Assembly (NCBI GenBank): GCA_030055595.1
Contig: JASFYH010000017.1
Coordinates: 1 to 32,473, forward strand
Reading direction: 5' to 3'
DNA: 32,473 nt
Source: Archaeoglobales archaeon
GTDB taxonomy: Archaea; Halobacteriota; Archaeoglobi; Archaeoglobales; Archaeoglobaceae
The notes under the pieces are model-generated. The model did no database searches. It was given only the letters and a program-made list of their open reading frames with translations, and was not told the origin of the DNA. Numbering within the stretch: position 1 is the first letter of the stretch; every line of letters begins with the position of its first letter. Both the position numbers and the translations under genes were made by a program. Below, in pieces: positions 2 through 25,157 of the stretch.

Positions 2-325
2 GTTAGGGAATTGAGGGAAACACTGAGCAAAAGTATGGAAGACTTGAGAACAAGCAAGAGTGCAGAGGAGATTCTGAAGAACAAAAAAGTAATCGTAGAA
101 ACTCTTTGCAACCTCTGTTTGGCTTATGCTGAGCTAAATAGAAAAGCTGAACTGTTGAACTCGCTAAGCGATCTTAAATTCTACACAAAAGAAAGTCTTC
201 AGGAGCTTTTGAATTCTATAAAAACCCTTGAGTTGATGATAAAAGAAAATTTAAACATTGAAGACGATTTTGTTGAAAGGCTTAAGGTTTTACTGCACAG
301 GGTGATAAGGGAAGTTGAAATGTAA
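2..325 (+). CDS. C-terminal end of a protein kinase paralogue (partial, cut by left edge)
   Basis: The frame is open to the first base, so the TTG at 11 is unlikely to be the true start; only about 107 residues lie in the window. They are wholly helical. They align by eye with the C-terminal tail of the broken kinase on the opposite strand: both have a run like AELLNSL/SELLGYL, then a segment like LMIKENLNIEDDF/LMIRENITIDQDF, then VIREV/VRESY. The gene is therefore most likely the tail of an archaeal Ser/Thr kinase whose catalytic domain lies to the left. It ends 4 nt from the end of the opposing kinase pseudogene, so the two converge. Function of the tail itself is unknown. Confidence 0.6.
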   Translation, partial: VRELRETLSKSMEDLRTSKSAEEILKNKKVIVETLCNLCLAYAELNRKAELLNSLSDLKFYTKESLQELLNSIKTLELMIKENLNIEDDFVERLKVLLHRVIREVEM

Positions 326-329
326 GAAT

Positions 330-1789
330 CTAGGGCACATAGCTTTCTCTGACTCTATTAACAACGTTCTCCAATATATTAATAAAATCTTGATCAATAG
401 TAATATTTTCTCTTATCATCAGTATACTCTGCTCAGTGAGATCGTCTATATTTCTTTTCAAATTCTCATCTTCAGTATAATCCTTAAGTTTCTCCAAATA
501 ACCCAATAGCTCAGATTTTTCATCAAGCTTAGCACTTGATATCGCGAGGTCACAGATTTTTTCAAGAAGTTCTTTTTTAAGCATTTTTATTTCTCCAATT
601 TCTCTAGATTTAGAAATTTTCTCGAGAATCGATTCAATTTCCGAAAGAAGCATCGACTTGTTCTCTCTTTGTTTAAACAAATTTAAGTCTCTGATAAATT
701 CTTCAATACTCCGGTATCTATCTTCCTTTTTCTTTGCAAGCATCTTTGATATTATCGGATCGAATTTCCTAAGCCTTTCATTGAAGCTTGAAACAAGTGG
801 GAACGGTTCGGGCTTAATTATTTCTCTCATTGTTTCCACAGCAGAATCCGATTGATAAGGAAGTTTTCCAGTCAAAAGTTCGAAAAAACGAGTCCCAGCT
901 GGAATATGTCTGTTCTACTGTCAGTCTCTCCATACACAGTCCTATCCAATTGTTCTGGGGCAGAGTATTGTAGAGTCAGTCCTTTAAACGCTGTTGCAGT
1001 TGTAGAAGTTTCCCTAACCTTTGCAAGCCCCAGTCGGCTATCTTCGGCGTCATTTCTGCAAAGATAAGAATATTGTTTGGTTTCAGATCTCTGTGAATTA
1101 TGTTTTTGGAATGCGCAAAGTTAAGACCATCTGCTATACCCTCGACGATCTTAACTGTAATCTCTTCATTTATCGGCTTTGGATAACTTCCAAGATCTCT
1201 TATTCTCTTTCATCCGATTTCAACTCCTTCACCGAATTCAAGCTCAAAATGAGGCACGGGCTCCTCAAAGGCTCCAAAGAGTTTAACTATGTTCGGATGA
1301 TTCATATTTTTCCATGTTTCTACCTCCTTTAAAAATGCCCTTCTTGACTTTTCATCGATGTGAGGAATCTTTAATGCGATAATTTTCCCATCTGATTTCC
1401 TTTTAACTTTAAAGACCCTAGCAAAGCCACCTTCACCTATAAATTCCAGTGGCTCGTATTTACTGGTTAGTGGGGTAGGAAAGTCTTTTAGTTTTTCCAT
1501 GGGTTTGTCAATGGGGTTTTTGAATTTCAGAGCTCGAGACCGTTTTTTTGAATTCTATTGGTTTCGCTTCGGGCTTTTAGTCCTCCATTTTTGTTGGTTT
1601 AGCCACTTCAAATTCCTTTTCTAATTTTTTGGACTCTCGAACTTGCTTTTTCCCTTTTCTTTTTCTATTTACGATAAATACTGCGGATAGGATGATCAGG
1701 ATGAATAAAAGCGTAAAAAAGTCGGAAAAATGAGCATCAAGATTGCTAAAAAGATCAAGACAATTCTGCTCGATTTCAGCATAGATCAC
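330..1789 (-). pseudogene. Membrane-anchored Ser/Thr protein kinase, broken by five lesions
   Basis: Read from a GTG at 1789 the product would be about 485 residues. It has a TM helix near residues 24-41, a K/E/P-rich linker, an archaeal eukaryote-like kinase domain and a helical tail. Kinase motifs are readable: glycine loop IGEGGFARV, ALKIP lysine, catalytic loop HRDLKPNN (near 1075-1095), ADWG, SAPEQL and ELLTGKLP. The frame is broken by TAA at 1577-1579, an indel in the G/T runs at 1513-1521, TGA at 1210-1212 (EIG*KRIRDLG), an indel in the C run at 1028-1031 and one in the A run at 883-888. The residual open pieces are 1577-1789, 1210-1500 and 330-875. The start overlaps the end of the Vps4-like gene by 4 nt (GTGA), so it was the last cistron of that operon. 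Three lesions lie in homopolymers, so sequencing error must be excluded; two stops are harder to explain that way. Confidence 0.8.
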
Positions 1790-2928
1790 CTGCTGCCAAA
1801 CTCTTCAGCCCATTTCTCATATCTTTCGATTTCTTTCTTTGTGAGCGGACTTTTTATCTTCTTAAACGCCTCCTCAAAATCGCTTAAAGTTAGAGGTCTA
1901 AGGTTCAGTCTTTTCTTCATCAACTCTTCGAATGGCAAGTTTGCAAGCTCTTCAAGCCTGTTCATCTCCCTTACCATGTTCCACGTCGCTTCTTTGCAGA
2001 GCGCGCTCACGTCTCTTCCGGAATAGAACTTTTCCACACATCTTGCTGCTATTGTTTCAAGATCCGCTTTCAGCTCCAATCCTTTGGTATGAATCCTTAT
2101 CATAGCCTTTATGGCTTCCTTGTCTGGCAAAGGAACGTAGATCCTTCGTGAAAATCTTGAAAGCACCGCTTCATCGAGATCCCAAGGTGTGTTTGTTGCT
2201 GCGAGCGTTAAGACAAATCTTTCACTCTTCTTGTCGATGAAGCCATCAAGCTCAGCGAGAATCGTTGCAAGCATTCTGCGAGAAGCTTCGCTCATCTCAT
2301 CTCTCTTTGTTGTAAGGGCATCGAACTCGTCTATGAAAACTATGCTTGGCGATTTATCTCTTGCTACATCGTAAAGTGCCGAGACTATCTTGCTCGACTC
2401 TCCAAAATACTTGCTGAGTATCATGCTGGTTCTAACGTTGAAAAAAGTTGCCTTAAGACTTCCAGCACAGGCTGAGGCAAGCAGGGTTTTTCCCGTTCCG
2501 GGAGGACCAAAGAACATGATACCTTTCCATGGCTGGATAGACTCGGGTTTTTGGATCAATGAAAGCACGATCGTTTCTTTCATCAGTCTCTTGACGTCAT
2601 CAAGACCCGCTATGTCGTTCCAGGTTACCTTGGATTGAGAAATAAAGCTTTTTACGTAGTTTGAGAAATCCTCCTCAGTTTCTTTTCCATTCTCACTCAC
2701 AGCTCTTCTAATCTTAACATCTGAAGCTTTCTCCCATTTCTCCGCAAGCTTCAAATAGTGTTCCCTATTTGGGGCGTATTTTGCAATCTCTCTCAATAGC
2801 TTTGCACACTTCATCGCCGCTTTTTTTGCTTCTTCAGCATCTCCTCTTGCAATCGCTTCTTCGTATTCCTTCTCAGCTTTTCTAAACTCGTTCAAAAGGG
2901 CTCCTGAGAGGTCGACTTTCATCTTCAC
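1786..2928 (-). CDS. Vps4/katanin-clade AAA ATPase with MIT-like N-terminal domain (CdvC-like)
   Basis: This 380-aa AAA ATPase is built like Vps4, which disassembles ESCRT-III filaments. Residues about 9-70 are a helical, A/E/K-rich hairpin resembling an MIT domain. The AAA module runs from about 100: Walker A GPPGTGKT at 141-148, Walker B IVFIDEFDA with D200/E201, sensor-1 N246 in AATNTPWD, and arginine fingers in the SRFSRRIYV segment (R258, R261). The C-terminus YEKWAEEFGS matches the terminal helix of the Vps4/katanin/spastin clade rather than Cdc48 or PAN. The first codon is GTG at 2928, overlapping the upstream stop (GTGA). An ATG at 2922 preceded by GGAGTGA may be the real start. The two genes just upstream encode ESCRT-III-like helical proteins, which fits a filament/remodelling-ATPase pair. 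An archaeal single-domain AAA family of other function is the alternative. Confidence 0.85.
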   Translation of the reverse strand: MKMKVDLSGALLNEFRKAEKEYEEAIARGDAEEAKKAAMKCAKLLREIAKYAPNREHYLKLAEKWEKASDVKIRRAVSENGKETEEDFSNYVKSFISQSKVTWNDIAGLDDVKRLMKETIVLSLIQKPESIQPWKGIMFFGPPGTGKTLLASACAGSLKATFFNVRTSMILSKYFGESSKIVSALYDVARDKSPSIVFIDEFDALTTKRDEMSEASRRMLATILAELDGFIDKKSERFVLTLAATNTPWDLDEAVLSRFSRRIYVPLPDKEAIKAMIRIHTKGLELKADLETIAARCVEKFYSGRDVSALCKEATWNMVREMNRLEELANLPFEELMKKRLNLRPLTLSDFEEAFKKIKSPLTKKEIERYEKWAEEFGSR

Positions 2929-3488
2929 TCCCTGAGCTTCTCTACTTTTCTCATCGCCTTCTCAGGTTCGAGATCGCCTTCTTTCACCGCTCTCATCGTA
3001 TCCATGATCTTTTTGATCTCTTCATCCTCTTCATAGCCAACGCTTATCGCCTGATCTGTGTAGCCGAGAGCTTTCATTAAGTTCTCATTTAGGTTTTGGG
3101 CGTCAAGTTGAATCGTCGCAAGCTTATTTTCGAGTTCTTCGGCAGGCATCTTTTTGAGCGTTTCATAAAGTGGAGAAGACCTGATCAGGGCTTCATTCTC
3201 CTTTATTATCATAATGTTGCTAAGAAGCATCATTTGCTTGTTAAGTTGAGCATGTGTTGCCTGCAGATTCTGCTTTCTTTGGCTCAGAGTTTTTATTTTA
3301 GTTGCAATTGTTAACTCCTCGCTCCTCGTTTTTGCCCGCTTTCCTTCTTCGAAAAGCAGTGTTATCTGCCTTTCTATATCTGATATCTCTTCTTCAACTT
3401 TCCTTATCTGCAGATCGAGCTTTATTTTATCATCTTTTAGCTTTTCCAGAGATATTTCCAGGGGGTTCTTTTTAAAAAATCTGAACAT
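2925..3488 (-). CDS. ESCRT-III/Snf7-like coiled-coil protein B
   Basis: A 187-aa charged, entirely helical protein with no Walker motifs. It begins MFRFFKKNPLE, a basic N-terminus shared with the next gene upstream. A long helical hairpin follows (about 15-105), then an acidic second half (about 120-187) ending AMRKVEKLRE. This layout (basic alpha1/alpha2 hairpin, acidic C-terminal half, short terminal amphipathic helix) is that of ESCRT-III subunits. The end resembles a MIM1 motif, the peptide that binds Vps4 MIT domains. It starts at ATG 3488, 3 nt after its paralogue's stop, with GAGGAGA upstream, and overlaps the AAA gene by 4 nt. The family call is inference from architecture and neighbours, not from a conserved signature. 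A PspA/Vipp1-like or generic coiled-coil scaffold is the alternative. Confidence 0.6.
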   Translation of the reverse strand: MFRFFKKNPLEISLEKLKDDKIKLDLQIRKVEEEISDIERQITLLFEEGKRAKTRSEELTIATKIKTLSQRKQNLQATHAQLNKQMMLLSNIMIIKENEALIRSSPLYETLKKMPAEELENKLATIQLDAQNLNENLMKALGYTDQAISVGYEEDEEIKKIMDTMRAVKEGDLEPEKAMRKVEKLRE

Positions 3489-3491
3489 AAT

Positions 3492-4079
3492 TCAGATCTC
3501 CTCTTCCTTTTCTATCTTCTTTTTAACCTCGTCAAATATCTTCTCAGGGCTCTCTCCTGACTCAACCTTTGCCCAAGCTTCCATGAGTTCTTTTTCTGCT
3601 GGATCTTCCTTAAGACTTTCATCCGCAAGTCTCATTTCGAAAACCCTGTTCAAATCGTCAAGAATGCTGTCAAAATCCTTTCCATCGAGATTTATGTTTA
3701 TAAGAGCATTTTCGAGCTTCTCAGGCTCTATCGATGTCAACTTTTTCCAAATTCCTTGTGATTCGAGCTCTCTCTGATATCTCTTAACTATTACCAAATT
3801 CTTTATGAGTGTATGTTGTCTCTGTGCGGTCATGAAATCCTTCATTCTAAGCTTTTGCTCAAGATCGAGGCTTTTCATCTCCTGAGCTATCATTTTCTTC
3901 TTAAGAAAATCTGCACCCACTCCTTCTTGGAAAAGCTGTTTTTTCTTCTTCTCTATCTCGTTTACGTCTTTCTTAATTCTATCCAGCTTATTTCTCAATC
4001 TCAACTCTTCCCCCTGGAGTTCTCTCATTGAAAGCTTTTCCAGAGGGTTCTTTTTAAACATGTCCATAATCCCCATCAT
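3492..4079 (-). CDS. ESCRT-III/Snf7-like coiled-coil protein A
   Basis: A 195-aa helical protein, paralogous to the gene that follows it. Both share the N-terminal FKKNPLE, a lysine-rich hairpin (about 20-110), a KLENAL/ELENKL segment near the middle, and a tail of the form AKVESGESPEKIFDEV here against RAVKEGDLEPEKAMRKV there. No enzymatic motif is visible. As a pair next to a Vps4-like ATPase they would be filament subunits that assemble on membranes. ATG at 4079 overlaps the stop of the 580-aa coiled-coil gene (ATGA). GGAGGTGA two bases upstream is an almost perfect ribosome binding site, suggesting strong translation relative to the larger upstream gene. A second ATG follows at once. Confidence 0.6.
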   Translation of the reverse strand: MMGIMDMFKKNPLEKLSMRELQGEELRLRNKLDRIKKDVNEIEKKKKQLFQEGVGADFLKKKMIAQEMKSLDLEQKLRMKDFMTAQRQHTLIKNLVIVKRYQRELESQGIWKKLTSIEPEKLENALININLDGKDFDSILDDLNRVFEMRLADESLKEDPAEKELMEAWAKVESGESPEKIFDEVKKKIEKEEEI

Positions 4080-5818
4080 CTCACCTCCCTTTTAACCAGA
4101 ACAAGACCAAAATTCTCGAAATACTTAACAAAACCGTATTTATCCGCAAGCTCGTAGAACGCCTTTTTTACATATCTCTCTTCACCGCAAGCAAGGACTT
4201 CATTCAGGCTCAGGTGATCCCTGCTCTTCAGCTTTTCCTCGATGCAATTTTTAACCCTCAAATAGGTCTCATTGTCCATCTCAAGCTGAACATACCTTGA
4301 AAGCGCTTTCGAGAGTGAATCAACTGGGTTAAATATGATCTCGTTTGTCTCGGTGTCGAGAAGCAGTAGAGAAATACTCTCGCTATAAAAGTTGCGGTGA
4401 AATTCTTCAGAATTTATGAAACTCTTGATTCTTTCTTCGAAGCCGAGAGGAGACGCGACTACAATTGCAGTTCTGATTTTTGCCTTTCTAAAGTTCGAAA
4501 CGTATTTATCAATTTCACCAAGTTCCATTGGATCTGTATCGAAGCCATATTTTGCAAATTTTTGCGGTCTGGTGAAAAAGAAGGCAAGTATTTTTAGTTT
4601 CTCTGCACCGAAAATCTTCTTCTCCTTCAGTTCAAATTCCAGCATTGAGCACTGTGGAACATCTTTCAGCTGAAGTCCGAATTCGTCAATCCTTTCAGTT
4701 CTGAATTTCCTTCCATTAAACTCAAATTCCTTAAGTTTTGCCTTCAACCTTTCCAGAAAATTTAACTCCATCATTCTCGCTTCTTCAGACTTCAAAAATC
4801 TCGAACCCTTTTCTATTTTTTCCTTCATCCCCGTTATCTCAGCGATCATTTTTCTCAGTTTTTCCTCCTTGCTTTCAATTTCCCTTTCCTTAGCCATTAT
4901 TTCTTCTTCTCTTTTTCTCAGCGCTTCCTCAACCGCTTTTATCTCTCCCATAAATCTTCCTTTAGCATTTTCCAGTTCTTTCTGAAGCTTTTCCTGCACC
5001 TCTCTATCCTTCATCTCCGCTATAGCCTTTGCAATCTCCTCTTTTTCCTTTTCAAATCTTTGAATCAGCTCTTCCTTCTCTCTACGCAAGTTCTCAATCT
5101 CAATTTCCGATTTCGAAGAAATATCAGAAATTATCTTCGATTTTTCCATTTCAAAACCTTTCTGCATTTCTTGAAGTCTGTTCTCAAGTTCTCTTACCCT
5201 AATAGAGAAGTCCTCGACTATTCCCCTCTTTTCCCTATCCCAATCCTCAAACATCGCTCTGAACCAGTCGTATTTGTTTGCTTCTGCAATTGCGTTGTTC
5301 AGTTTTTCTTTGTAACCATTCCAGAGACTTCTGAAATGGTAGCGAAGTGCAAGAGATATGTTTGGATTTTCAAGCTGTTCTTCCATCCAGCTATCAATCC
5401 CAAGATAGTATGTTTTTAGCAGTTCGTAGACGTTTTTATCTCTTCTACTAAGTTTTTTCACAATATCTTCAATGCTAAGCACTTCCAAAACGTTGAACTT
5501 GGTTATTTCATCGACGAATACGAGATCTTCATCGTTGAATCTTCTCTGATCAAAGTTCTCTCCGTTTATTTTAAAACTCAAGGCTATCAAAGCCAAAGCT
5601 GCTTCGAATTTTCCACAAAAAACTTTGTCAAGGTTCTTTATGAACTCCCCGCACTCTCCGTTCAGATATCTTTCGTAGGCTTCGCTTATTTCATTCCATA
5701 GTTTTTTTCTCTTTTCAAAGTTCTCTCTATATATGTCTCTTCCCTGTCTGAGCACTCTTTCAGCGCTTGAAAGTAGCATTTTAATGCATTCGCTCTTCCC
5801 CTCAAACATTTCCACCAC
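4076..5818 (-). CDS. 580-aa coiled-coil protein of the ESCRT-like cassette, function unknown
   Basis: I do not recognise a named family. Residues 1-195 are helical. Residues about 200-365 are a continuous E/K/R-rich coiled coil. Residues about 370-510 look globular with alternating beta strands (KIRTAIVVASPLGF, SISLLLLDTE, NEIIFNP). Residues about 520-580 resemble a small winged helix (LSLNEVL, KKAFYELADKYGFV). There is no signal peptide or membrane span. The start is one of GTG 5818, GTG 5815 or ATG 5809; the last has GGTGG just upstream and would overlap the preceding gene by 8 nt. It lies between the first cassette gene and the two ESCRT-III-like genes with 4- to 17-nt overlaps, so it is surely co-translated. 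A recruiting or scaffolding role, like CdvA for CdvB in crenarchaea, is speculation. Confidence 0.75.
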   Translation of the reverse strand: MVEMFEGKSECIKMLLSSAERVLRQGRDIYRENFEKRKKLWNEISEAYERYLNGECGEFIKNLDKVFCGKFEAALALIALSFKINGENFDQRRFNDEDLVFVDEITKFNVLEVLSIEDIVKKLSRRDKNVYELLKTYYLGIDSWMEEQLENPNISLALRYHFRSLWNGYKEKLNNAIAEANKYDWFRAMFEDWDREKRGIVEDFSIRVRELENRLQEMQKGFEMEKSKIISDISSKSEIEIENLRREKEELIQRFEKEKEEIAKAIAEMKDREVQEKLQKELENAKGRFMGEIKAVEEALRKREEEIMAKEREIESKEEKLRKMIAEITGMKEKIEKGSRFLKSEEARMMELNFLERLKAKLKEFEFNGRKFRTERIDEFGLQLKDVPQCSMLEFELKEKKIFGAEKLKILAFFFTRPQKFAKYGFDTDPMELGEIDKYVSNFRKAKIRTAIVVASPLGFEERIKSFINSEEFHRNFYSESISLLLLDTETNEIIFNPVDSLSKALSRYVQLEMDNETYLRVKNCIEEKLKSRDHLSLNEVLACGEERYVKKAFYELADKYGFVKYFENFGLVLVKREVR

Positions 5819-6332
5819 CTAAGAAAAACTCAAGGTCTTTTTTCAACTTCTCAGAGAATCTTTCGACCGCTTCAGCATTTCCAGTAATTCTGAAGTGTAA
5901 TTTATTCCCATTATCGGAAATCTCTATCTCAACTCTGCCCTTCCTTGTTAGTGAGAAATATTTGTTTGTTCCCGGCAAAATTCTAGCATTATTTCTTGCC
6001 ATAGCGAGTTCCAATAGTTTTTTTGCTATCTCAGGCTTTTCCAAGCTTCTTACTTCGAATGAAACAGTCTTCATTTCCACTTCTGGGGTTTTTTCCTCGA
6101 TTAAGGTATAGACTCTGAGCTTTTCTATAGATTTGGGATTCATTTTCGACGTTAGCTCATCAAGAAACTCTGCAAGATTTCTCTCAACGAAAAAAGCTAT
6201 TCCCCTGATCTTTTCAATTCCAGTGGACTCTTTCCACTTCTCAAGAGTGTATTCTATTCTTTTCCTCTCTGCTTCGTCCTCATAATCGACGCAGACTAAG
6301 TGGCGTTTCAACGATCTATAATTTTCAATCAA
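5802..6332 (-). CDS. 176-aa protein, first gene of the ESCRT-like cassette, unknown function
   Basis: No family recognised. The first half is helical with short strands (HLVCVDY, IRGIAFFVE). The second half has a beta-beta-beta-alpha run (RVEIEISDNGNKLHFRI, then an amphipathic helix to residue 172). It carries no membrane segment, Cys cluster or nucleotide-binding motif. The TTG at 6332 gives 176 aa. However, a TATA box at 6333-6341 predicts transcription from about 6311, which is exactly a second TTG (codon 8, 6311). A leaderless 169-aa form is therefore quite possible. It ends inside the start of the 580-aa coiled-coil gene and heads the operon that continues to about 330. Confidence 0.6.
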   Translation of the reverse strand: MIENYRSLKRHLVCVDYEDEAERKRIEYTLEKWKESTGIEKIRGIAFFVERNLAEFLDELTSKMNPKSIEKLRVYTLIEEKTPEVEMKTVSFEVRSLEKPEIAKKLLELAMARNNARILPGTNKYFSLTRKGRVEIEISDNGNKLHFRITGNAEAVERFSEKLKKDLEFFLGGGNV

Positions 6333-6347
6333 TTATTTAAACTTTTC
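6333..6347 (-). promoter_or_regulatory. TATA/BRE promoter of the ESCRT-like operon
   Basis: On the minus strand the sequence reads GAAAAGTTTAAATAATT, a purine-rich BRE followed by TTTAAATAA. The centre lies near 6337, so the start of transcription should fall near 6311, inside the first ORF and at its second TTG. It is the only clear TATA box before the cassette, which supports one transcript for all genes from 6332 down to the kinase. Confidence 0.55.
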
Positions 6348-6385
6348 TTTTTTGGAGAATATTGTAAGTTGGTGAAATGGAGAAA

Positions 6386-6811
6386 TTATGAGAGTGAATG
6401 CAAGTAATGTGCTATGGCGACGTCTTTTAGTCTATCGATGCAAAGCAGAAGGGCATCGCGGCTATCTGGAGGAATGCCTTCGGCAACAACGATGAAATTC
6501 CCCAGCGAGAATTTATCCCAGCTGAGCTTCTTCACGATTTCCTGATCAAGCAAATCTACAATCCCTTTGTATCTTTGCTCGAAAACTTCTAAGGGGATAT
6601 TTTTTCCTCTGTATTCGTAAGGGAGCTTCATAAGTCCTATGATCTTATCCATCAAAACAAGAACTTTATTCGGAATCAGATTCAGCCTTTCAGCAGCTTT
6701 TATCCTCATCTCGGCTGTCTCAATCTTCCCGGAATCAAGGTATGCGCTGATCACTTCGAGCGCATCTTTGCTCATTAAGCTTTTTGAATACCTCGTTCCA
6801 AGAACGTTCAA
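6386..6811 (-). pseudogene. C-terminal helical domain of the upstream kinase, cut off by an in-frame TAA
   Basis: A TTG start at 6811 would give 141 aa, but the frame is the exact continuation of the kinase ORF. That ORF ends RPGME-TAA, and the next codons read IRDRIADYLLNVLG in the same frame. Kinase C-lobes commonly run RPSMEEIRD at this spot, so the TAA most likely replaced a GAA glutamate codon. The domain is helical with no recognised motif. It could still be translated separately from the TTG, but no ribosome binding site or promoter is seen in front of it. It ends 53 nt before the ESCRT-like operon start, in the same direction. Confidence 0.65.
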
Positions 6812-6838
6812 TAGATAATCCGCTATTCTATCCCTAAT

Positions 6839-8299
6839 TTATTCCATTCCCGGCCTGAGTTCTGGTTTAGAAAGGCATGAGTTCACGATCTCTTCAAGTC
6901 TCTTGTCTCCGATCTTAACTGTTACGTTATCGCATCTTTCTAAGTAGTCCAAAGGATCTGCAAAAAGACTTTCACCTGTCAGAAGTTCAAACAGAATGAC
7001 TCCAAAGCTATAAACATCGCTCTTCGCATTTAGATTTCTTCCATCTGATCTGTATAGCTCTGGAGCTGAATAGCAAGGGGTATATCCTCCTCCCCAGTCC
7101 GCTATTGCGGGATAGTATTCGCCGTTCTCCTCGAAAACGAGGACGTTCTCAGGCTTGAGATCGCCGTGATAGATCTTATGAGAATGAGCATAGGAAAGAG
7201 CCTTTGCAACCCTGTGCATGAATCTGAGCTTTTTCTTTAGCTCGGGATTAATTCTCATTAAATCTCTTAGCGTCATTGGATAGAACTGCATAACAACGAA
7301 TGGCTTTGGATTTGATCCGAAGTCAAGTGGTTTAACAATGTATGGAATGTTGAGCCTTTTGGTCAGCTGGACGAAGTTTCCGATCTCTTCTATGAAAGCC
7401 TTCTCACCTTCTCTGTAGATCTTCAATGCAACAGTGTTTCCATTTTCATCAATTGCTTTGTATACATCTGCAAATGCTCCACCGCCTGCGAGAGCCATTA
7501 TCTTGTATTTCAAGAACTTTTTCTCTTCTTCGGCTTTTTCTTCCATTTTTTCCAATTTTGGTTTCTCCTCGACTTTTTGAGTAGCCCTGAATTCTAAATC
7601 GAACTCCTTCTCGATATTTTGCCTCGTGTCTTCGAAGTCGAACGAAACTCTAATCTTTAATTTATTCATTCCGGGCTCAAAATTCGGCTTAATCTTTATT
7701 TTTTCGCTTTTCAGCTTTTTAATGCTTATAGGCTCAATCTTTATTCCTTCAAACTCTACAAGAGCGTTCTCAACTTCAAAGCTTGAATTGAGCAGAATTT
7801 CAAGCTCATCTTTTTCTGTCAAAATTCGTTTTGGAATTTCTATCTTGACTTCTGGAATTGCTATGGTTTCTGCTATCTTTGCCAAAGCCCTTGAACGCCA
7901 ATATTTATCAGATATGTCCCTTGCAACTTCTAAAGCCTCATCAAAAATCTTATCCGCTTCTTCTGACCTTCCAGCCTTAGAAAAAGCTTCTGCAACATTA
8001 CTTAAAGCCCTTGAACGCCAATATTTATCTGATATGCTCCTTGCAACTTTCAAAGCCTCATCAAAAATTTCATTAGCCTTCTCAAAAAGTGAAACATCCT
8101 GATGTAGGTGATTCGACTTTCCAATCTCCTCGATTTTCGTTATATCTTCATGAGCCCATAAATCCGCTTCATAATCCCAGTAACTCGGTTTTATGGGTTT
8201 TATAATCCTAATACATTGTGGTTTTCTTTTCACGATTTCAATTTTTTGCATGTTTTTGCTACTCCCCCAAACTTTAAGAGTGGCTGTCTTTTTTTTCAT
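6839..8299 (-). CDS. Ser/Thr protein kinase with TPR-like repeats and Ig-like domain
   Basis: 486 aa from ATG 8299. Order: OB-fold remainder (about 1-60); two 40-residue TPR-like repeats (about 78-117 and 118-145) each carrying DKYWRSRAL; a beta-rich Ig/CARDB-like stretch (about 155-240); an E/K linker; and a kinase domain (about 262-486). Kinase motifs: glycine loop AGGGAFADV at 271-279, K293 in ALKIY, catalytic loop HGDLKPEN (H378, D380, K382, N385; HGD in place of HRD), D401 in ADWGGG, and SAPE at 411-414. All phosphotransfer residues are present, so the domain could be active, but the C-lobe is cut at RPGME by TAA. The 5' end lacks the first OB-fold half, lost to an A8-tract shift. A cytosolic signalling kinase that may act on the downstream cassette. 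Confidence 0.8.
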   Translation of the reverse strand: MKKKTATLKVWGSSKNMQKIEIVKRKPQCIRIIKPIKPSYWDYEADLWAHEDITKIEEIGKSNHLHQDVSLFEKANEIFDEALKVARSISDKYWRSRALSNVAEAFSKAGRSEEADKIFDEALEVARDISDKYWRSRALAKIAETIAIPEVKIEIPKRILTEKDELEILLNSSFEVENALVEFEGIKIEPISIKKLKSEKIKIKPNFEPGMNKLKIRVSFDFEDTRQNIEKEFDLEFRATQKVEEKPKLEKMEEKAEEEKKFLKYKIMALAGGGAFADVYKAIDENGNTVALKIYREGEKAFIEEIGNFVQLTKRLNIPYIVKPLDFGSNPKPFVVMQFYPMTLRDLMRINPELKKKLRFMHRVAKALSYAHSHKIYHGDLKPENVLVFEENGEYYPAIADWGGGYTPCYSAPELYRSDGRNLNAKSDVYSFGVILFELLTGESLFADPLDYLERCDNVTVKIGDKRLEEIVNSCLSKPELRPGME

Positions 8300-8846: not shown

Positions 8847-10055
8847 TCATATTTTAATCCTTCCCTCCTCTCTTAGGATCTCGAGAATCATCTTCTTGAC
8901 TTTTTCCTCGATCATTTTCTCAAGATCATTATCAATTACTGCCTCAATTATCTCCTTGCTGTCGAAATTCTTGACTAAGATTGCAAAATCCAGAGAAGCC
9001 TTGCATTTCCAGCAAATGTCTCTTCCCGGCTCATTCAACTCGCCGCAAACCAGGCAAACGACAGGCTTAAGCCTTTTAACTTCAGGCTCCCCCTCCTCTT
9101 GCTTGAGTAATCCGAGTTCGGTTAGGATTTTTCTGTCCACATCCGTATCCACTACCTTAGCATATCTGCGTAGATGTTTCGAGCCCGGAATATGTCCACT
9201 CCTTCTGCTCAGTTGTTGCTCCGTAAGAACAACAGACCAGAGCGTTATTCCCGTATGTCTGAACTTGTATGGGCTGAATTTCTTTTTGATCCCGGCCCTC
9301 TTCATAAGCCTGTCGATGATCCTAATGTAAGCAAAATGGTCCACTGGGGCAACGATTCCTTTCTTGAACTTATTTAGATCGATCCACATCGGAGCTTTGG
9401 GATCGTCTTTAAGCGGGTGGTTGTTCAGCCAGCGGGTAACATAGGGAAGACTAAAACTAAGATGTGGGGATCTGCGGAATGTTTTGCTTCTTCTCAGTTC
9501 AACCCTTATTCCAATGCGATCTCTCACGAAACTCCCGACTGTAAGGGTCAGGAGTTCCTCTGGCCTGCAGGCTAAGTCCAGATGGCACATTATCATCGCT
9601 GGATCTCTGTCGTTTATTGCAAAGCTTGCGAGTTTAATTATTTCATCAATACTAAGCAGGTCTTCTCTTGATAGTTCATTGTCCTGAGCCTCCTTTTTCT
9701 TTATCTTTGCCGCAAGATCTTCCTTCCCGACGAATTTCAAATACCATTTAATTGCTTTCCTGAACTCATTTACCGTGTTTACCTTAAGTCCTAAGATGTT
9801 CAGCTCTGCAAAAACTTTGTTCAACCTTACTTCGTCAATGTTTTCAAGGCTGAGGGGGTATCTTTCGCAGAGCAATCTCAGACACTTTATTTCTCTGCAT
9901 ACTCTTGGAAGGCTCACTCCGTTTGCAAGTCGGAAATCCATGTATTGAAAGATTCGCTCTTTGTTTCCTTTGCCGATTTTACTATTTTTGATAAGTTCTA
10001 TCTCACTTTCGAGCAGTTTCTCGTAGTCTATGCTCCTCCATTTACTCATCTCCAC
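8847..10055 (-). CDS. Tyrosine recombinase/integrase with C-terminal zinc ribbon
   Basis: 402 aa. An N-terminal helical SAM-like DNA-binding region (about 10-125) precedes a tyrosine recombinase catalytic domain. Visible catalytic residues: R164 in ACRPEELL, K191 in RRSKT, R266 in YKFRHT, H288 in RSGH and nucleophile Y298 in RRYAKV. The usual first histidine of HxxR is a tyrosine (Y263). Residues 334-351 form CxxC-x10-CxxC, a zinc ribbon, followed by a helical tail. Such zinc-ribbon integrases occur in archaea and act in site-specific recombination. A TATA box predicts transcription from about 10054, so GTG 10055 is a plausible leaderless start; ATG 10049 is the alternative. No other mobile-element genes are adjacent, so it may be the survivor of an integrated element or a resident recombinase. 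Confidence 0.85.
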   Translation of the reverse strand: MEMSKWRSIDYEKLLESEIELIKNSKIGKGNKERIFQYMDFRLANGVSLPRVCREIKCLRLLCERYPLSLENIDEVRLNKVFAELNILGLKVNTVNEFRKAIKWYLKFVGKEDLAAKIKKKEAQDNELSREDLLSIDEIIKLASFAINDRDPAMIMCHLDLACRPEELLTLTVGSFVRDRIGIRVELRRSKTFRRSPHLSFSLPYVTRWLNNHPLKDDPKAPMWIDLNKFKKGIVAPVDHFAYIRIIDRLMKRAGIKKKFSPYKFRHTGITLWSVVLTEQQLSRRSGHIPGSKHLRRYAKVVDTDVDRKILTELGLLKQEEGEPEVKRLKPVVCLVCGELNEPGRDICWKCKASLDFAILVKNFDSKEIIEAVIDNDLEKMIEEKVKKMILEILREEGRIKI

Positions 10056-10688: not shown

Positions 10689-10785
10689 GTAATACTCATT
10701 CGTTTCAAATTAATAAGTTTACGACGTTATCTTCAAAAAACAATAGCTAAATGGGAAAAAGTAATAATAAAATTTTATATAGTAA

Positions 10786-10794
10786 GATTTAAAT
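10786..10794 (+). promoter_or_regulatory. TATA box of the surface-protein/ABC-transporter operon
   Basis: GATTTAAAT is centred about 26 nt before the ATG at 10816, giving a leaderless transcript. A second TATA-like element (TTTTATATA, about 10772-10780) would start RNA near 10802. No other promoter-like site is evident up to 18064, so the six genes may share this one. Confidence 0.5.
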
Positions 10795-10815
10795 CCTATA
10801 ACTACTACTAATTTT

Positions 10816-12342
10816 ATGAACAAAGTGTTAACTTTATTGGTTTGGGTATATTTGATCAGCACAGCGAGTGCGTTGGTAACTTCGATAGACGTTTATTCAG
10901 AGATCTCAATGGGCTCGGAAGGAGAGATCGTTTTCAGAGTGAATGGAGATCCCCCGTTCGTTGTTGGGATAAACTTTACAGTTCCAGAAGGCTTTGCCCT
11001 CATTGAATGCTTGCCCAACTACAAAATATCGGGAAATAAAGTTGCTATCGCTTTAGTTGGCGAATCTGAAGCCAAGTGTAAAGTAAGAGCTCCTTTCAAA
11101 TCCGACATCTCCTATGATTTAAATGGATACTGGATTGATCTGCTTAGTGAGAACGAAGGCAGTATTATTGAAAAAATAAACCTAAAAACTCCGCCAAAGA
11201 CATACAAAGGTCCAGCATCTTCACCACGTTTATCTGACATTCTCAGAGTAAATATGATTGAAATCTCGGATACCGAAGTATACGAAGGCGATACAATAAC
11301 GCTCTACGTGGATACCGCAACTTATAAGGATGTGACAAGATACGTTGCGATCATTGACGTTTATGATTACATGAATTTGAAGTCTATAAACGAAATAGAT
11401 ACCACAAGTGTTGCAAGCAAGGCTAAATGGAAAGTAACGCTGGGTGAAGAAGGAAAGATCAACGAATTCACAGTAAACACTTCGAGATACGACATTGATG
11501 TTGGATACTACGTAGTTGTCGTGTATATAAACAAAACCGCTTTTGATGACTCATTGATATTCAGAGTGAAATTCTCAAGCACTTCAAAAGAAGAAACGAA
11601 AACCACTCCTTCAATTACACAAAATAGCTTGACTTCTAAGCTATATCTGGAAATGAATGGTGAAAGAAAATTGATTGTATCGTCAGATTTGATGAAGCAG
11701 ATAAATATCCTGGGCTTATCAATAAAATCTAACGAGACAACAGAAGCGGACATTTCAATATCTAAGCTCCCTTCGTTGCCAAGCGGTGTCAAGAGTCCAA
11801 CTGGAACCTTGCTTTACGTGTGGGACATAACGCTCAGATCTTCGAAGCCAGCGAGTTTTGAGGGATACATAGAGTTTTTGATAGACAGAGGCATGATCTC
11901 TGAAAAAGGTTACAATCCAGACGATGCCGAAATAGTCTTTTTGAGATACGACAAAGAGTGGAGTGAGCTAAATGCTACTTTGTTTAAAAAAGATGATGCT
12001 TACAACTACTACATTGTAAAAACTCCCGGCTTCAGTTACTTTACTGCGGTCATTAAAGCTCCAGAAACGTCTACACAACAAACACCCGCCTTTAGTCAAG
12101 CTCCGCCCTCTACGCAATCTCCGTCTACGCACTCCTCCTCACAACCCTCAACTCAAACTTCGCAAAGAACAGCGGAATATCAAACCACTTCTGCCCCCTC
12201 ATCCCAGATTAATGCACAAGGTTCGACATTCTTGAACTTGGAGCTCGTAATTCTTATAATGCTCGGAATGATGGGAGTTATGATAGTAATTTTGATCGGC
12301 TTTATGGTTTTAATGTTTAGAATTGGAGGTGAAAGGAGGTGA
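10816..12342 (+). CDS. Membrane-anchored surface protein with PGF-pre-PGF domain
   Basis: 508 aa. A signal peptide (1-19, ending TASA) leads into beta-rich extracellular domains (about 20-260). A region matching the archaeal PGF-pre-PGF domain follows (about 280-415; YIEFLIDRGMI, then AEIVFLRYDKEW, then TPGFSYFTAVI). After it come a Ser/Thr/Pro/Gln-rich stalk (about 416-470), a TM helix (about 475-501) and a short basic tail RIGGERR. Several NxS/T sites suggest N-glycosylation. The stop overlaps the first substrate-binding-protein gene by 4 nt, so it belongs to the transporter operon. It could anchor or present substrate at the cell surface beneath the S-layer; that role is inferred from context. 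Confidence 0.8.
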   Translation: MNKVLTLLVWVYLISTASALVTSIDVYSEISMGSEGEIVFRVNGDPPFVVGINFTVPEGFALIECLPNYKISGNKVAIALVGESEAKCKVRAPFKSDISYDLNGYWIDLLSENEGSIIEKINLKTPPKTYKGPASSPRLSDILRVNMIEISDTEVYEGDTITLYVDTATYKDVTRYVAIIDVYDYMNLKSINEIDTTSVASKAKWKVTLGEEGKINEFTVNTSRYDIDVGYYVVVVYINKTAFDDSLIFRVKFSSTSKEETKTTPSITQNSLTSKLYLEMNGERKLIVSSDLMKQINILGLSIKSNETTEADISISKLPSLPSGVKSPTGTLLYVWDITLRSSKPASFEGYIEFLIDRGMISEKGYNPDDAEIVFLRYDKEWSELNATLFKKDDAYNYYIVKTPGFSYFTAVIKAPETSTQQTPAFSQAPPSTQSPSTHSSSQPSTQTSQRTAEYQTTSAPSSQINAQGSTFLNLELVILIMLGMMGVMIVILIGFMVLMFRIGGERR

Positions 12343-13541
12343 AAGCTGGGCTTTTACTTATTTTTATTGCATTACTGATTTCAACAGCAAGTGCCATTAC
12401 AAGCAAAGACTACATAGAAATATTCTTTGATGATGATACAATAACTAAGGATGAACTTTTGAATATATTAAGCGCCTACATGCTCAACGAAGATTATCAA
12501 GGGAAGAATTTGAAGCTTGAATGGCTGAGAGACGCAAGCTACGTTTACGTATATTGGGATGGAAAACCAAAGAGGATAATTGATTCAGCCAGTAGTGAAG
12601 TGGTTATATACAAGCCAGTTAAGAGTATTGTAGTTCTAAATAGCGATTCTGGACTGGCTGTGCAAATTCTTGGCTCTAAGGACAGAGTAGTGGGAGTTAG
12701 CACTTCTGTAAAGAATTCTTACAAAATGCTTCCTGAGATAAGCCAAAAACCTTCTGTGGGTCTATGGAACGACCCGAATATAGAAGAGATCGTCAAAATG
12801 GCTCCAGATTTAGTTTTATCATACGTTCGATGGCCAACTTCTGACAAATTGGAGAATCAGCTTGCTGGAACAGGAATTACAGTCGTTAGACTCGATTTTT
12901 ATATCCTCGATACAATGAAAGAAGAAATGAAAAAGCTCGGATCTATTTTAGATGCTGAGAAGTATGCTGAAGAATACATAAAGTGGTTTGAATATTATGT
13001 AAACCTGGTAACGTCAAGAATTCCAGAAGAGGAGAAAAAAGTTAAGGTTTACACAACTGGTGGGACAAAGGCCCCTCTACGTGCGTTTGCAGAAGGAACC
13101 GGGTTGTTCACGTTATCAGTTCTGGCTGGAGGTAAAAACGTCCTTGAAGGGCGTAATGGTTACTTTGATGTAACGGTGGAAGAGCTATTAAATTGGAAAC
13201 CAGAAGTTATACTTCGCTGGAGCTCAGCTGGCGGTTATGAAGTCGATGATGAAACTGAACTGATAAAAGATTATAATGGTGTTTTGAATGCACTCCAGAG
13301 CTATTCTGAAGAGATCCCAGCAATCAAAAATGAGAGGATTTATGTTCTTTCAAGTAAAATCGGCACCAGCCCCTCTGCTCCAGTAAGTCTTGTTGCAGTA
13401 GCGAAGGCGTTGTATCCAGAAAATTACGGTGATTTAGATCCAGTGGCAATTCATCAAGAATTCATCGACAAATTCCTTGGAATAAACTTTGATGTCAAAA
13501 CTCAAGGAGCTTTCTTCTACTCCAAGAGTTTTGGATGGTGA
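12339..13541 (+). CDS. ABC transporter substrate-binding protein 1 (FepB/BtuF-type)
   Basis: 400 aa. A signal peptide without lipobox cysteine (cleavage near TASA, residue 19) precedes a 75-residue module with an acidic helix-loop-helix (DDDTITKDELLNILSAYML), like the dockerin/EF-hand-like heads found on archaeal binding proteins. A class III (COG0614) periplasmic-binding domain follows from about residue 88. GLWNDPNIEEIVKMAPDLVL is the typical PNlEkIl..~PDlVi motif, and DFYILDTMKEEMKKLG marks the linker helix. The ligand is probably an iron complex, heme or corrinoid. GTG at 12339 overlaps the upstream stop, with GGAGGTGA 6 nt before it. It lacks any C-terminal anchor. Confidence 0.85.
   Translation: MKAGLLLIFIALLISTASAITSKDYIEIFFDDDTITKDELLNILSAYMLNEDYQGKNLKLEWLRDASYVYVYWDGKPKRIIDSASSEVVIYKPVKSIVVLNSDSGLAVQILGSKDRVVGVSTSVKNSYKMLPEISQKPSVGLWNDPNIEEIVKMAPDLVLSYVRWPTSDKLENQLAGTGITVVRLDFYILDTMKEEMKKLGSILDAEKYAEEYIKWFEYYVNLVTSRIPEEEKKVKVYTTGGTKAPLRAFAEGTGLFTLSVLAGGKNVLEGRNGYFDVTVEELLNWKPEVILRWSSAGGYEVDDETELIKDYNGVLNALQSYSEEIPAIKNERIYVLSSKIGTSPSAPVSLVAVAKALYPENYGDLDPVAIHQEFIDKFLGINFDVKTQGAFFYSKSFGW
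12477..12573 (+). repeat. 97-bp tract nearly identical to 13692-13788 in the next gene
   Basis: By eye only two of 97 positions differ from the matching stretch of binding protein 2. It encodes the same part of the N-terminal module (YMLNEDYQGKNL, then WLRDASYVYVYW). The proteins diverge strongly on both sides, so the tract looks like recent gene conversion or an exchange. Confidence 0.75.
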
Positions 13542-13547
13542 TCGAAC

Positions 13548-14846
13548 ATGAAGTATACATTTATATTATTACTTTTATTAATACCGTTGTCTTTTGGAAT
13601 TTCTTCTGCCTCTACCAGCAGGGAATACATAGAGTTGTTCTTTTCAGACGAGAGGATAGATATCGAGGAGCTTTTAAACTCAATAACAGCTTACATGCTC
13701 AACGAAGATTATCAAGGGAAAAATTTGAAGCTTGAATGGCTGAGAGACGCAAGCTACGTTTACGTATATTGGGGTGGAAAACCAAAGACGTTTGTGGACG
13801 TTAATGGAAACCCATTGAAAATTTACAAGCCTATTAAGAAAATTGTAACTTATCACCACCAGCATGCAGAGATGTTAATGATATTGGGCTTGGAGGATAA
13901 AGTAGTAGGTGTTAGAGACACATTTGCGATTCAGAAAAACAGATATCCGATCTTACACACAAAGCCAAGCGTTGGCTCAGGAGACAATCCGAACTTGGAA
14001 AAAATTATAGAATTGGATCCAGACGTGGTTGTAGCATATGGTTGGTATCCTGCTGTAGGAACAATTGAAGAACTTTCTAATCTCCCTGACAGAGTTATAT
14101 CCATAATGAGGGTCGGGTTCACTGGAGATCCAATTGGAAAAGGTTATGTTGGAATCGATGCTATGAAAAAAGAAGTCTTGGACTTTGCATCGCTTTTCGA
14201 TCAAGAAGTAATGAAAAGGGCTCAGAAATATTTGGAATGGCATGATAGATACATTAATATCGTGCTTGAGAGGGTCTCAAAGATACCAGAAAATGAGAAA
14301 TTAAAGGTATTTGTAGAGAGCTCCGAAGGCAGTTACGGAAGAAGCAATACGAGGCTTGGCATAGGTCTGGGACATCCAGCCCATGGATTGGTAGAGCTCG
14401 CTGGGGGTAAAAACATAGGAGCGGGGAACATACCTTTTAATCCCACCTATAATACAGAATATAACGACATTTCGGTAGAATTCGTGCTAGAGAATAACCC
14501 GGATATAATAGTTGGAAGAGCTATGGGCACAATTTCTGGTCAAGGCGCATTAAGACCATGGGAAAGAACTGACGATGGCGCAGTCAAAGCTTATTACAAT
14601 GACATTAAGAACGTTTTTAACTTAACAAATGCTGTGCGTAATGATAGGGTTTATGTTATTACAAACGATTGGGCAATAACACCAAACTATCCATCCGCTC
14701 TCGTAGCGTTGGCTAAGTGGTTTTATCCAGAGCTATTTGCAGACTTAGACCCATGCAAGGTCTTTGAAGAATACGTAGACCTTCTCGGAGTTTCGAAAGC
14801 CGTTCTTAACCACAGGTCATTCACTTATCCCGCGATATGCATATGA
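13548..14846 (+). CDS. ABC transporter substrate-binding protein 2 (FepB/BtuF-type)
   Basis: 432 aa. The signal peptide (about 1-22) has no lipobox. The N-terminal acidic module (SDERIDIEELLNSITAYML) includes a tract almost identical in DNA to binding protein 1. The COG0614 domain follows from about 95: ILGLEDKVVGV, GSGDNPNLEKIIELDPDVVV, a long linker helix near 210-240, then LAGGKNIGAG and DISVEFVLENNPDIIVG. The best-conserved body suggests a functional receptor for a metal-chelate or tetrapyrrole ligand, perhaps a different one from its neighbours. It starts at ATG 13548, 6 nt after the previous stop, with GGTGAT upstream. It has no C-terminal membrane anchor. Confidence 0.85.
   Translation: MKYTFILLLLLIPLSFGISSASTSREYIELFFSDERIDIEELLNSITAYMLNEDYQGKNLKLEWLRDASYVYVYWGGKPKTFVDVNGNPLKIYKPIKKIVTYHHQHAEMLMILGLEDKVVGVRDTFAIQKNRYPILHTKPSVGSGDNPNLEKIIELDPDVVVAYGWYPAVGTIEELSNLPDRVISIMRVGFTGDPIGKGYVGIDAMKKEVLDFASLFDQEVMKRAQKYLEWHDRYINIVLERVSKIPENEKLKVFVESSEGSYGRSNTRLGIGLGHPAHGLVELAGGKNIGAGNIPFNPTYNTEYNDISVEFVLENNPDIIVGRAMGTISGQGALRPWERTDDGAVKAYYNDIKNVFNLTNAVRNDRVYVITNDWAITPNYPSALVALAKWFYPELFADLDPCKVFEEYVDLLGVSKAVLNHRSFTYPAICI
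13692..13788 (+). repeat. Second copy of the 97-bp conversion tract
   Basis: Partner of 12477-12573. The third binding-protein gene has the same module but clearly different DNA here, so the tract is shared only by genes 1 and 2. Confidence 0.75.
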
Positions 14847-14899
14847 GAATTTTTACAGATCTAAATCTAATCAAAAAAGCTGTTTGAGGAGGTGATCGT

Positions 14900-16177
14900 G
14901 TGAAACAATTTTTATTTTTAGTTTTTTTACTTTTAACAGTATTGGTGTCCCCAACACCTGCCTCGACACCAGATAAATATAGGAACTTGTTTTTCAGTAA
15001 TGAATACCTTGATAAGGATGATTTAAGTGACGCAATTATTGCCTATATGCTCGATGAGCCCTATAAAGGGGAAAAAATAAACGTTGAATGGTTGAAAGAC
15101 GCTTCGTATGTTTACGTTTACTGGAATGGGAATCCTAAAAAAATTTACATGTCCGACGGAAGAGAGAAAGTTTTCTATAAACCCATAAGAAAAATAATTC
15201 CTTTGAACCCATCTGCAGCTGACGCTATAAGAGTTCTCAGCGCTTCAAATCTCGTAGTAGGCATAGAAACCGCGACTGTGAAACCAAACTATCTCCCAGA
15301 ATATCTAAATCTACCATTGATAGGTCCGGGTAACAATCCGAACTTCGAGTTGATCTTTAAACTTGACCCAGATGTGGTAATTGCCTACGTTCCAGGAGTA
15401 TACAATCCCGGATATGATGCGCTCGAAGCTCAGCTTGAGCCAAAGATAACTGTTGTCCGCTTAGATTTTTACAAGCCCGAAACTATAGAGGAGGAAATGC
15501 TCAAGTTGGGAGAGTTGCTTGGTAAGGAAGAAAGGGCAAGAGATTTTATTGAGTGGAGAAAACATTATTTCAATATTGTTAAAGAAAGAATCAAATCAGT
15601 TGAGAGTAAGCCAAGGGTCTTTATAGACTATGGTCCCGGAAGAGTAATAACATCGGGAAGATTAACAGTCGCTTCCAATACTGGATTACACCAACTTGTT
15701 GAATTTACTGGAGGAATAAACGTCGGAGCTGACTTAAACCCAAGCATCGCAAGAATTCTCAGCCCCTATAGTCCCGGTTACTATGCGGTCGATTACGAGT
15801 GGATAATATCTCAGCAACCCGAGATAATAATAGGGCAAGCATCTGGCCTTAATTCGAGAAGTGGTGGTTTTGAAACAAACGATTTAAGTGCTCTAAAAGA
15901 CTATTACAATGAAATAATTTCAATTCCAGGGATTGAAAATACCCCTGCAGTTCAAAATAAGAAGATCTATATTATACACGGGGATATAACCTCAAGACTT
16001 AATGACGTCGTAGGATTGCTCTTCCATGCCATGTGGTTCCACCCGGACTTGTTCAGCGACATAGAACCGCTGGACGTTCTCCAGGAATACATAGACAAAT
16101 TTACTTCTTCTAAAATGAACGTTAGAACCCAGGGTATTTACGTATATCACCCTGAACTATATCCGAACGGAAGATAA
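14900..16177 (+). CDS. ABC transporter substrate-binding protein 3 (FepB/BtuF-type)
   Basis: 425 aa. The signal peptide ends near PTPAS (residue 22) with no lipobox. The N-terminal module (NEYLDKDDLSDAIIAYML) is followed by a COG0614 domain with GPGNNPNFELIFKLDPDVVI, the linker helix EETIEEEML-type segment (here PETIEEEMLKLGELLG), VEFTGGINVG and EWIISQQPEIIIG. It begins at GTG 14900 behind GAGGAGGTGAT, the best ribosome binding site in the operon, after a 53-nt gap. Its stop is 2 nt from the permease start, so this receptor is the one most tightly coupled to the transporter. Ligand not determined: iron chelate, heme or corrinoid are all possible. Confidence 0.85.
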   Translation: MKQFLFLVFLLLTVLVSPTPASTPDKYRNLFFSNEYLDKDDLSDAIIAYMLDEPYKGEKINVEWLKDASYVYVYWNGNPKKIYMSDGREKVFYKPIRKIIPLNPSAADAIRVLSASNLVVGIETATVKPNYLPEYLNLPLIGPGNNPNFELIFKLDPDVVIAYVPGVYNPGYDALEAQLEPKITVVRLDFYKPETIEEEMLKLGELLGKEERARDFIEWRKHYFNIVKERIKSVESKPRVFIDYGPGRVITSGRLTVASNTGLHQLVEFTGGINVGADLNPSIARILSPYSPGYYAVDYEWIISQQPEIIIGQASGLNSRSGGFETNDLSALKDYYNEIISIPGIENTPAVQNKKIYIIHGDITSRLNDVVGLLFHAMWFHPDLFSDIEPLDVLQEYIDKFTSSKMNVRTQGIYVYHPELYPNGR

Positions 16178-16179
16178 AC

Positions 16180-17277: not shown

Positions 17278-17281
17278 GATT

Positions 17282-18064: not shown

Positions 18065-18183
18065 TTTTCAAACTCAGCGAACGAGTTAGACATATCGAGA
18101 CTGATTAGGTCACAAAGTAGCCCAAAATTCGGGAAAATAGACAGAAATAAAATAACCATTGAATAAAACATAATAGTTCAGAA

Positions 18184-24724: not shown

Positions 24725-25157
24725 CCTTATGAATTTTTACTCCTTTCTCAATTTAAAGCTTTCTAATGCCCTCTTTTATTTATATACTCTCGCAAACCTC
24801 CAAAGTTGCAACTCATTTATAAAGGCATGCGACTTTTTTCTTCGCATTCTTTTTGAATAAAATTGAATTTAAAAAGCTTTTTTAAAAATCAAAGAAATTT
24901 CAGCAGGGTGGAGCTTAAGAATAAAAATAGAAAAGCCCAGATTGGCAAAAGGAGGAAGTATAAAAAATAAGTCTTTGTAATAATAAAGGAAAATTTTATC
25001 GCGTGCGACTTGCTATTTTGACTTTGATTTTGATTTAAGGCTTTTAAAAGGTTTTTTGTTGAGTTTTAAGGAATTTGCTCAGGGATTAATTTAAATAATT
25101 GAAGGACTTTGTAATTCAAAAGAACAGTAAAACTCTCGTTTAAGAGTTGATAAATAT
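24725..25157 (-). promoter_or_regulatory. CRISPR leader
   Basis: This 433-bp gene-free, A/T-rich stretch follows the leader-proximal repeat and ends at the Sir2 stop codon. On the minus strand TATA boxes are visible at about 24777-24786 (TATATAAATAA) and 24815-24823 (CTTTATAAATG). They predict starts near 24755 and 24793, both reading into the array. Its position, base composition and the orientation of the repeat fit a leader. The part beyond about 24950 shows nothing specific. Confidence 0.7.

Follow-up and report, generated by a model that had tools for sequence, protein, structure and literature searches.

A probable kinase-associated ESCRT-III/Vps4-type gene row in an FtsZ-bearing archaeon of the Archaeoglobaceae

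The window analysed here, positions 1–32,473 of contig JASFYH010000017.1 of an Archaeoglobales archaeon (assembly GCA_030055595.1), carries at 1786–8299 a row of seven tightly packed minus-strand genes, as revealed by its open reading frame (ORF) map. The core of the row consists of five genes encoding the two-domain protein p176, the coiled-coil protein CC580, two small helical proteins designated E2 and E1, and an ATPase of the Vps4 type with an MIT-like N-terminal domain, a composition that points to an ESCRT-III/Vps4-type membrane-remodelling system. The genes of the row are:

1786–2928, minus strand: Vps4/CdvC-type ATPase, 380 aa (Pfam AAA 1.3e-35, Vps4_C 4.5e-8), with an MIT-like three-helix domain at about residues 1–85, AAA at residues 137–267 and Vps4_C at residues 335–378
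2925–3488, minus strand: E1, putative ESCRT-III-like protein, 187 aa, paralogue of E2 and kept beside it in relatives
3492–4079, minus strand: E2, putative ESCRT-III-like protein, 195 aa, judged by its AlphaFold2 model and a fold match to CdvB
4076–5818, minus strand: CC580, 580 aa, with a helical N-terminal part, a coiled coil at about 200–350, a globular domain and a C-terminal domain
5802–6332, minus strand: p176, 176 aa, with two predicted alpha/beta domains (ferredoxin-like N-terminal, helix-grip-like C-terminal)
6386–6811, minus strand: p141, 141 aa, family unassigned (no Pfam, NCBIfam or PHROG match)
6839–8299, minus strand: intact ORF for a TPR and protein kinase protein (TPR-kinase), 486 aa (Pfam Pkinase 3.5e-27, TPR_12 8.2e-9)

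Spacings between the five core genes, from p176 to the ATPase gene, are −17, −4, +3 and −4 nt. An earlier note made from the sequence had described five genes overlapping or lying no more than 3 nt apart, and these five ORFs were confirmed with their coordinates and strand; the row does not end there, however, but continues upstream over a 53-nt gap to p141 and over a further 27-nt gap to the TPR-kinase. p141 probably belongs to the same operon as p176 and the rest of the row, and no relative of it was found in the related loci searched.

Among the NCBIfam models, CdvC gave the best E-value for the ATPase (2.5e-61, residues 25–377), with a score of 207.6 bits that lies far under the model's own cut-off of 650, while Vps4_C scored 33.4 bits, above its cut-off of 21.3, a match that is unspecific when taken alone, as Cdc48-like proteins of the same genome pass too. 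In a tree of 60 AAA-domain rows, which holds no eukaryotic Vps4, katanin or crenarchaeal CdvC rows, the window protein fell within a 26-row clade of cassette-type ATPases (support 100/99), and a further split (98/94) set the cassette Vps4s, together with alphaproteobacterial proteins and Asgard Vps4, apart from Cdc48, PAN-like and FtsH-like rows. The phylogeny proposed in the earlier note thus grouped the protein with Vps4 and away from PAN and Cdc48, and a PAN, Cdc48 or FtsH identity was ruled out by this placement. In a Hodarchaeota (Asgard) genome, the top match of the window AAA was Vps4 at 211 bits, with the runner-up at 141 bits, and this Hodarchaeota gene has an ESCRT-III-like gene directly upstream, in the same position that E1 and E2 occupy relative to the ATPase gene of the window. 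The N-terminal domain proved collinear with the N-domains of Asgard Vps4 (hhalign 81.5%, P 1.3e-6), which, together with the Pfam AAA and Vps4_C matches, is compatible with the predicted architecture of an MIT-like domain joined to a Vps4-type AAA ATPase. Judged by its sequence, the AAA protein of the window is a Vps4.

A Vps4-like ATPase of 415 aa with a helical N-domain was also found in 4 of 385 genomes of the alphaproteobacterial class. Three of these proteins form the sister group of the archaeal cassette Vps4s in the tree (support 99/94, long branch), and their genes lie in alphaproteobacterial metagenome-assembled genomes (MAGs):

L019:2963–4207, L020:4867–6111 and L021:7644–8888: alphaproteobacterial Vps4-like ATPase

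In L020, formamidase/nitrilase-like and glutamate-synthase-like genes precede the ATPase gene, and no ESCRT-III-like gene was recognised. A Geoglobus MAG (L001:157–1233) holds a second, diverged Vps4/Cdc48-like AAA gene of 359 aa beside its ESCRT genes; this gene has a long branch that attaches basally on the Cdc48 side of the tree. An archaeal-type Vps4, at about 61% to the window protein, was found on a spirochaete-binned contig (L018, JAQVVB010000357.1, labelled Sphaerochaeta); as it groups with methanogen rows, the contig is probably mis-binned.

The two small helical proteins are paralogues, as had been claimed (hhalign 99.8%), with E2 being the better conserved at 44–67% identity in most relatives. 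The AlphaFold2 model of E2 (predicted local distance difference test score, pLDDT, 80.9) features long helices at 18–53 and 58–100 with short helices after them, which is the ESCRT-III layout, and its top fold matches in the PDB were CdvB chains of S. islandicus (probability 0.96 and 0.92, E 0.11 and 0.16). We counted 15 ESCRT-III superfamily members among the top 25 fold matches, represented by CdvB, CdvB2, Asgard ESCRT-IIIB, Vipp1 and CHMP2A-CHMP3. E1 gave no significant Pfam or PDB sequence match, and a Pfam search of 23 E1/E2-type members revealed no ESCRT-III link, nor did phmmer against the PDB. As no sequence profile gave a significant match, it is the fold ranking and the genomic context that carry the assignment to ESCRT-III. 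The fold comparison that the earlier note had suggested therefore supports it in so far as the E2 model is ESCRT-III-like and CdvB is its best PDB match, but at weak E-values (0.11). As far as the model goes, we consider an ESCRT-III-like fold of E2 likely, short of proof. Compared with PspA/Vipp1, the likeness lies in the Vipp1 structures among the top 25 fold matches, whereas E1 and E2 accompany a Vps4 and gave no Pfam match to PspA/IM30. Asgard ESCRT systems share the ESCRT-III-like gene directly upstream of Vps4 and an ATPase on the same side of the tree; in contrast, ubiquitin or ESCRT-I/II genes were not recognised in the window, and E1 and E2 show no significant alignment to Asgard ESCRT-III.

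CC580 was found in the same loci as the cassette at identities of mostly 32–50%; it gave a coiled-coil match and is conserved in its N- and C-terminal parts. p176 is likewise a conserved neighbour in the loci of relatives, and its AlphaFold2 model (pLDDT 77, predicted template modelling score 0.47) shows the ferredoxin-like and helix-grip-like domains listed above, with Foldseek matches that include ferredoxin-like, KA1 and Aha1 folds. Archaeal ESCRT systems have been divided by Vps4 phylogeny (Makarova et al. 2024, mBio 15:e00335-24, PMC10936438), and the "Main" clade, with hosts among Thermococcales, Methanococcales, Methanomicrobiales, Halobacteriales and others, comprises Vps4, ESCRT-III, arCOG09748 and arCOG08177, often with membrane serine/threonine kinases and a phosphatase (PMC10936438). 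In that description, arCOG09748 is a helical protein with a coiled coil, a globular domain and a winged helix, and arCOG08177 combines Cas2-like and TBP-like domains (PMC10936438). By layout and neighbourhood, CC580 is a candidate arCOG09748-type scaffold, while the model of p176 is compatible with the published description and makes it a candidate arCOG08177-type adaptor. The composition of the window cassette corresponds gene for gene to the described set, kinases included: a Vps4 with an MIT-like domain, ESCRT-III-like proteins, a coiled-coil and globular protein, a two-domain alpha/beta protein, membrane-anchored serine/threonine kinases and an FtsZ-bearing host. Unlike the published examples, the window belongs to the Archaeoglobaceae, whose order is not named in the main text of PMC10936438, and it features a tandem pair of ESCRT-III-like paralogues, an extra TPR-kinase and p141, an adjoining recombinase, a broken nearest transmembrane (TM) kinase and no phosphatase gene that we could see.

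Searches by tblastn combined with ORF maps revealed that E2, E1, the AAA gene, p176, CC580 and a TM-kinase recur together, or largely so, though not always in the same order or orientation, in Archaeoglobales including Geoglobus, in Methanosarcinaceae, and in Methanocorpusculum, Methanocalculus, Methanoregula and Methanogenium. Where conservation of gene order had been put forward for checking, what was seen is a recurrence of the gene set across Archaeoglobales, Methanosarcinaceae and Methanomicrobia, with the order itself kept in part and varying; the grouping is thus no product of chance. In the nearest relative, a genome of the same family (G189), the order is p176-CC580-E2-E1 and a TM-kinase of 1257 aa lies between E1 and the AAA gene; in a more distant genome (L176), p176 and CC580 are followed by a 199-aa helical protein that, by eye, resembles another E-type gene. 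Among 393 genomes of the phylum, E2 was present in 19 and CC580 in 32, both being found in 17 of the 19 E2 genomes (Fisher p 4e-19, uncorrected for genome kinship). No E2 or CC580 match was obtained in the other 9 genomes of the genus, although these congener MAGs may be incomplete, and the cassette was not found by sequence search in most genomes of the family.

This patchy distribution, with E2 in so small a share of the phylum, also bears on a different explanation, namely that the cassette is a mobile, selectively kept module for anti-virus defence or a membrane-stress response, in which ESCRT-type proteins would seal or remodel damaged membrane upon a kinase trigger. A candidate mobility gene adjoins the row:

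8847–10055, minus strand: tyrosine recombinase with a zinc-ribbon motif (Pfam Phage_integrase 2.8e-6; PHROG integrase 5.5e-15)

The recombinase would stand outside the machine itself, and the genome has a second copy of it, 67% identical, at another place. In the comparison with G063, the closest congener, synteny (97% over 7.3 kb) starts at 10757, just to the right of the recombinase, a break that fits a gained or lost segment, short of proof of mobility. The mobile reading is further favoured by kinases that are multiple and decaying, while it is opposed by a gene set that is old and stable over several orders, by the possible incompleteness of the congener MAGs, and by the search for an integration site, which found no tRNA, Rfam element or attachment (att) site. 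PADLOC matches were limited to generic AAA and kinase models, and filing the cassette as a defence system was rejected on this ground. We consider a mobile module unlikely. In its most explicit form, which we hold to be just as doubtful, a kinase-controlled ESCRT module would move horizontally among some Archaeoglobaceae beside FtsZ, its ectodomain kinases would sense envelope damage or virus, and membrane would be repaired or budded off; if true, it would represent a dispensable stress or defence ESCRT and not a housekeeping one.

The kinases bear equally on the more probable reading of the row as a regulated ESCRT operon. Two further kinase features lie to the left of the row:

330–1782, minus strand: remnant of a broken TM-kinase gene, matching intact kinases piecewise in three frames
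2–325, plus strand: C-terminal end of a second, convergent TM-kinase, continuing a kinase ORF at the edge of contig C24

A TM-anchored kinase gene had been read after the ATPase gene, a claim that was not confirmed, since this reading at about 330–1782 is broken: kinase similarity, from 1485 down to 351, is spread over three frames and interrupted by an in-frame TGA (1210–1212) and by frame changes near 1030 and 890, and the TM/N-terminal region at 1577–1782 is disrupted as well. Intact kinases to which the pieces align are found in relatives and on contig C24; a sequencing error may be involved, though the adjacent genes are open. On contig C24 (3,790 nt) lie two TM-kinase genes, of which one (KIN0, 639 aa) is fully open and the other runs off the contig end. 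As the window frame at 2–325 continues this second kinase from base 2 onwards, with 44.7% to the C-terminus of KIN0, C24 very probably abuts the start of the window, a join reconstructed between contigs that share no overlapping bases. Membrane-associated serine/threonine kinases at the locus are thus represented by the TM-kinases on C24 and in the loci of relatives. The TPR-kinase keeps its catalytic-site residues (HGDLKPEN, ADWG), and a kinase that matches it in both the TPR and the kinase portion is located just downstream of Vps4 in a related locus (L002). Because the kinase beside Vps4 is a remnant, a coupling to phosphorylation rests on the TPR-kinase, the C24 paralogues and the kinases of related loci. 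In two further loci (L005:2286–3245 and L011:2204–3163), a 320-aa protein is encoded between CC580 and the TM-kinase; towards its C-terminus it matches the helical domain with which the TM-kinases end, and it is possibly a stand-alone adaptor carrying that domain.

The source genome (1.55 Mb, 32 contigs, 99% complete; its family also holds Geoglobus) contains four FtsZ/tubulin-family genes, and division by FtsZ is therefore expected. A second Cdv-type division machine, operating alongside FtsZ or replacing it, would employ the same pair of an ESCRT-III-like protein and a Vps4 as CdvB and CdvC, and Cdv proteins divide Sulfolobus cells (PMC12818579). CdvC is indeed the best NCBIfam model of the ATPase and CdvB the best fold match of E2, yet the ATPase falls far short of the CdvC cut-off, the accessory proteins differ and FtsZ-family genes are present in the host. 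A CdvA-like gene was not recognised, with no CdvA hit among the cassette proteins in general Pfam and NCBIfam scans, which were not directed at CdvA. As the cassette was not found in the 9 congeners and most of the family, it is not needed for division there, and other complex archaeal ESCRT systems have likewise been argued not to serve cell division (PMC10936438). Taken together, we regard a role in division as quite improbable.

Thus, we concluded that the row is probably an operon encoding a kinase-regulated, Vps4-driven ESCRT machine that belongs to the Main clade of euryarchaeal systems. By analogy with homologous systems, E1 and E2 would polymerise together along the inside of the cell membrane, recruited and nucleated there by CC580 and p176, which would act as an adaptor for site or cargo. 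Vps4 would bind the ESCRT-III C-termini via its MIT domain and thread subunits through its hexameric pore, so that the polymer would be remodelled and disassembled and the membrane neck cut. Membrane-anchored and TPR-containing serine/threonine kinases may relay a signal by phosphorylating adaptors or ESCRT-III and thereby gate recruitment. The output would be budding of vesicles, protein sorting or membrane repair, all of which we consider more likely than cell division because the genome has FtsZ-family genes.

Several results weigh against this assignment. No fold match of E2 reaches a significant E-value (best 0.11), TM-scores by query length amount to 0.24–0.40, and long helical hairpins match many coiled coils, the ranking having been made without a control fold. 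Alignment of E1 and E2 to 20 Asgard ESCRT-III proteins by hhalign gave probabilities of about 2% or less, and a PDB profile search returned CdvB as the best match at E 1.9, which is not significant. With the N-domain of the ATPase, Pfam gave no MIT match, and the PDB profile search hit no solved structure of an MIT domain. A winged helix was not detected in CC580 by sequence profile, the 50 fold matches listed for p176 did not include Cas2, and both proteins were compared with arCOG09748 and arCOG08177 at the level of the published descriptions. In addition, the kinase nearest Vps4 is, as read from this assembly, broken.

Part of this evidence would also suit a machine that acts without membranes, in which the ATPase, as a single-ring unfoldase from the Vps4/katanin group, would remodel protein, and E1 and E2 would be unrelated helical proteins serving it as substrates or chaperone clients. 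E1 and E2 lack sequence homology to known ESCRT-III, helical hairpins are common, and alphaproteobacteria carry the related ATPase apparently as an isolated gene. The predominance of the ESCRT-III superfamily among the top fold matches argues against it, as do the helical gene beside Vps4, in the arrangement of Asgard archaea, the two co-conserved paralogues, which are typical of ESCRT-III, and the membrane-anchored kinases of the loci. Such an unfoldase appears the least probable of the explanations weighed here.

To the right of the recombinase, the block at 10757–18080 is 97% identical to the congener G063, where it lies in a different context. Within it, at 12339–16177, three tandem related ORFs resembling metal/iron-binding solute-binding proteins of ABC transporters are followed by a permease and an ATPase. 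A CRISPR array at 20894–24770 comprises 57 copies of the repeat CTTTCAATCCCATTTTGGTCTGATTTCAAC, with one spacer-repeat unit duplicated exactly at 23256–23391; no cas gene was recognised in the window. Adjoining the array on the minus strand, an apparently single archaeal ATPase gene at 19805–20843 is present as two ORFs (20382–20843 and 19805–20341) and is possibly a pseudogene.

The inference of the earlier note, a second remodelling system in an FtsZ-bearing euryarchaeon, is essentially right: an ESCRT-III/Vps4-type cassette with adjacent kinases occurs in a genome with four FtsZ/tubulin-family genes. Its claimed novelty is not there, since the cassette matches a published type and the system type itself is therefore no new discovery; the authors of that study had already proposed a key part for phosphorylation and, for such systems in FtsZ-bearing archaea, a role in protein sorting or vesicle formation (PMC10936438). 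The literature searched yielded no experimental work on a complex ESCRT system from a euryarchaeon. The compact protein set of this thermophile, with two ESCRT-III paralogues, Vps4, two adaptors and kinases, suits reconstitution, and the patchy presence of the cassette among close relatives offers natural comparisons with and without it. The locus thereby lets one ask what role ESCRT plays in an FtsZ-bearing archaeon and whether phosphorylation controls it.

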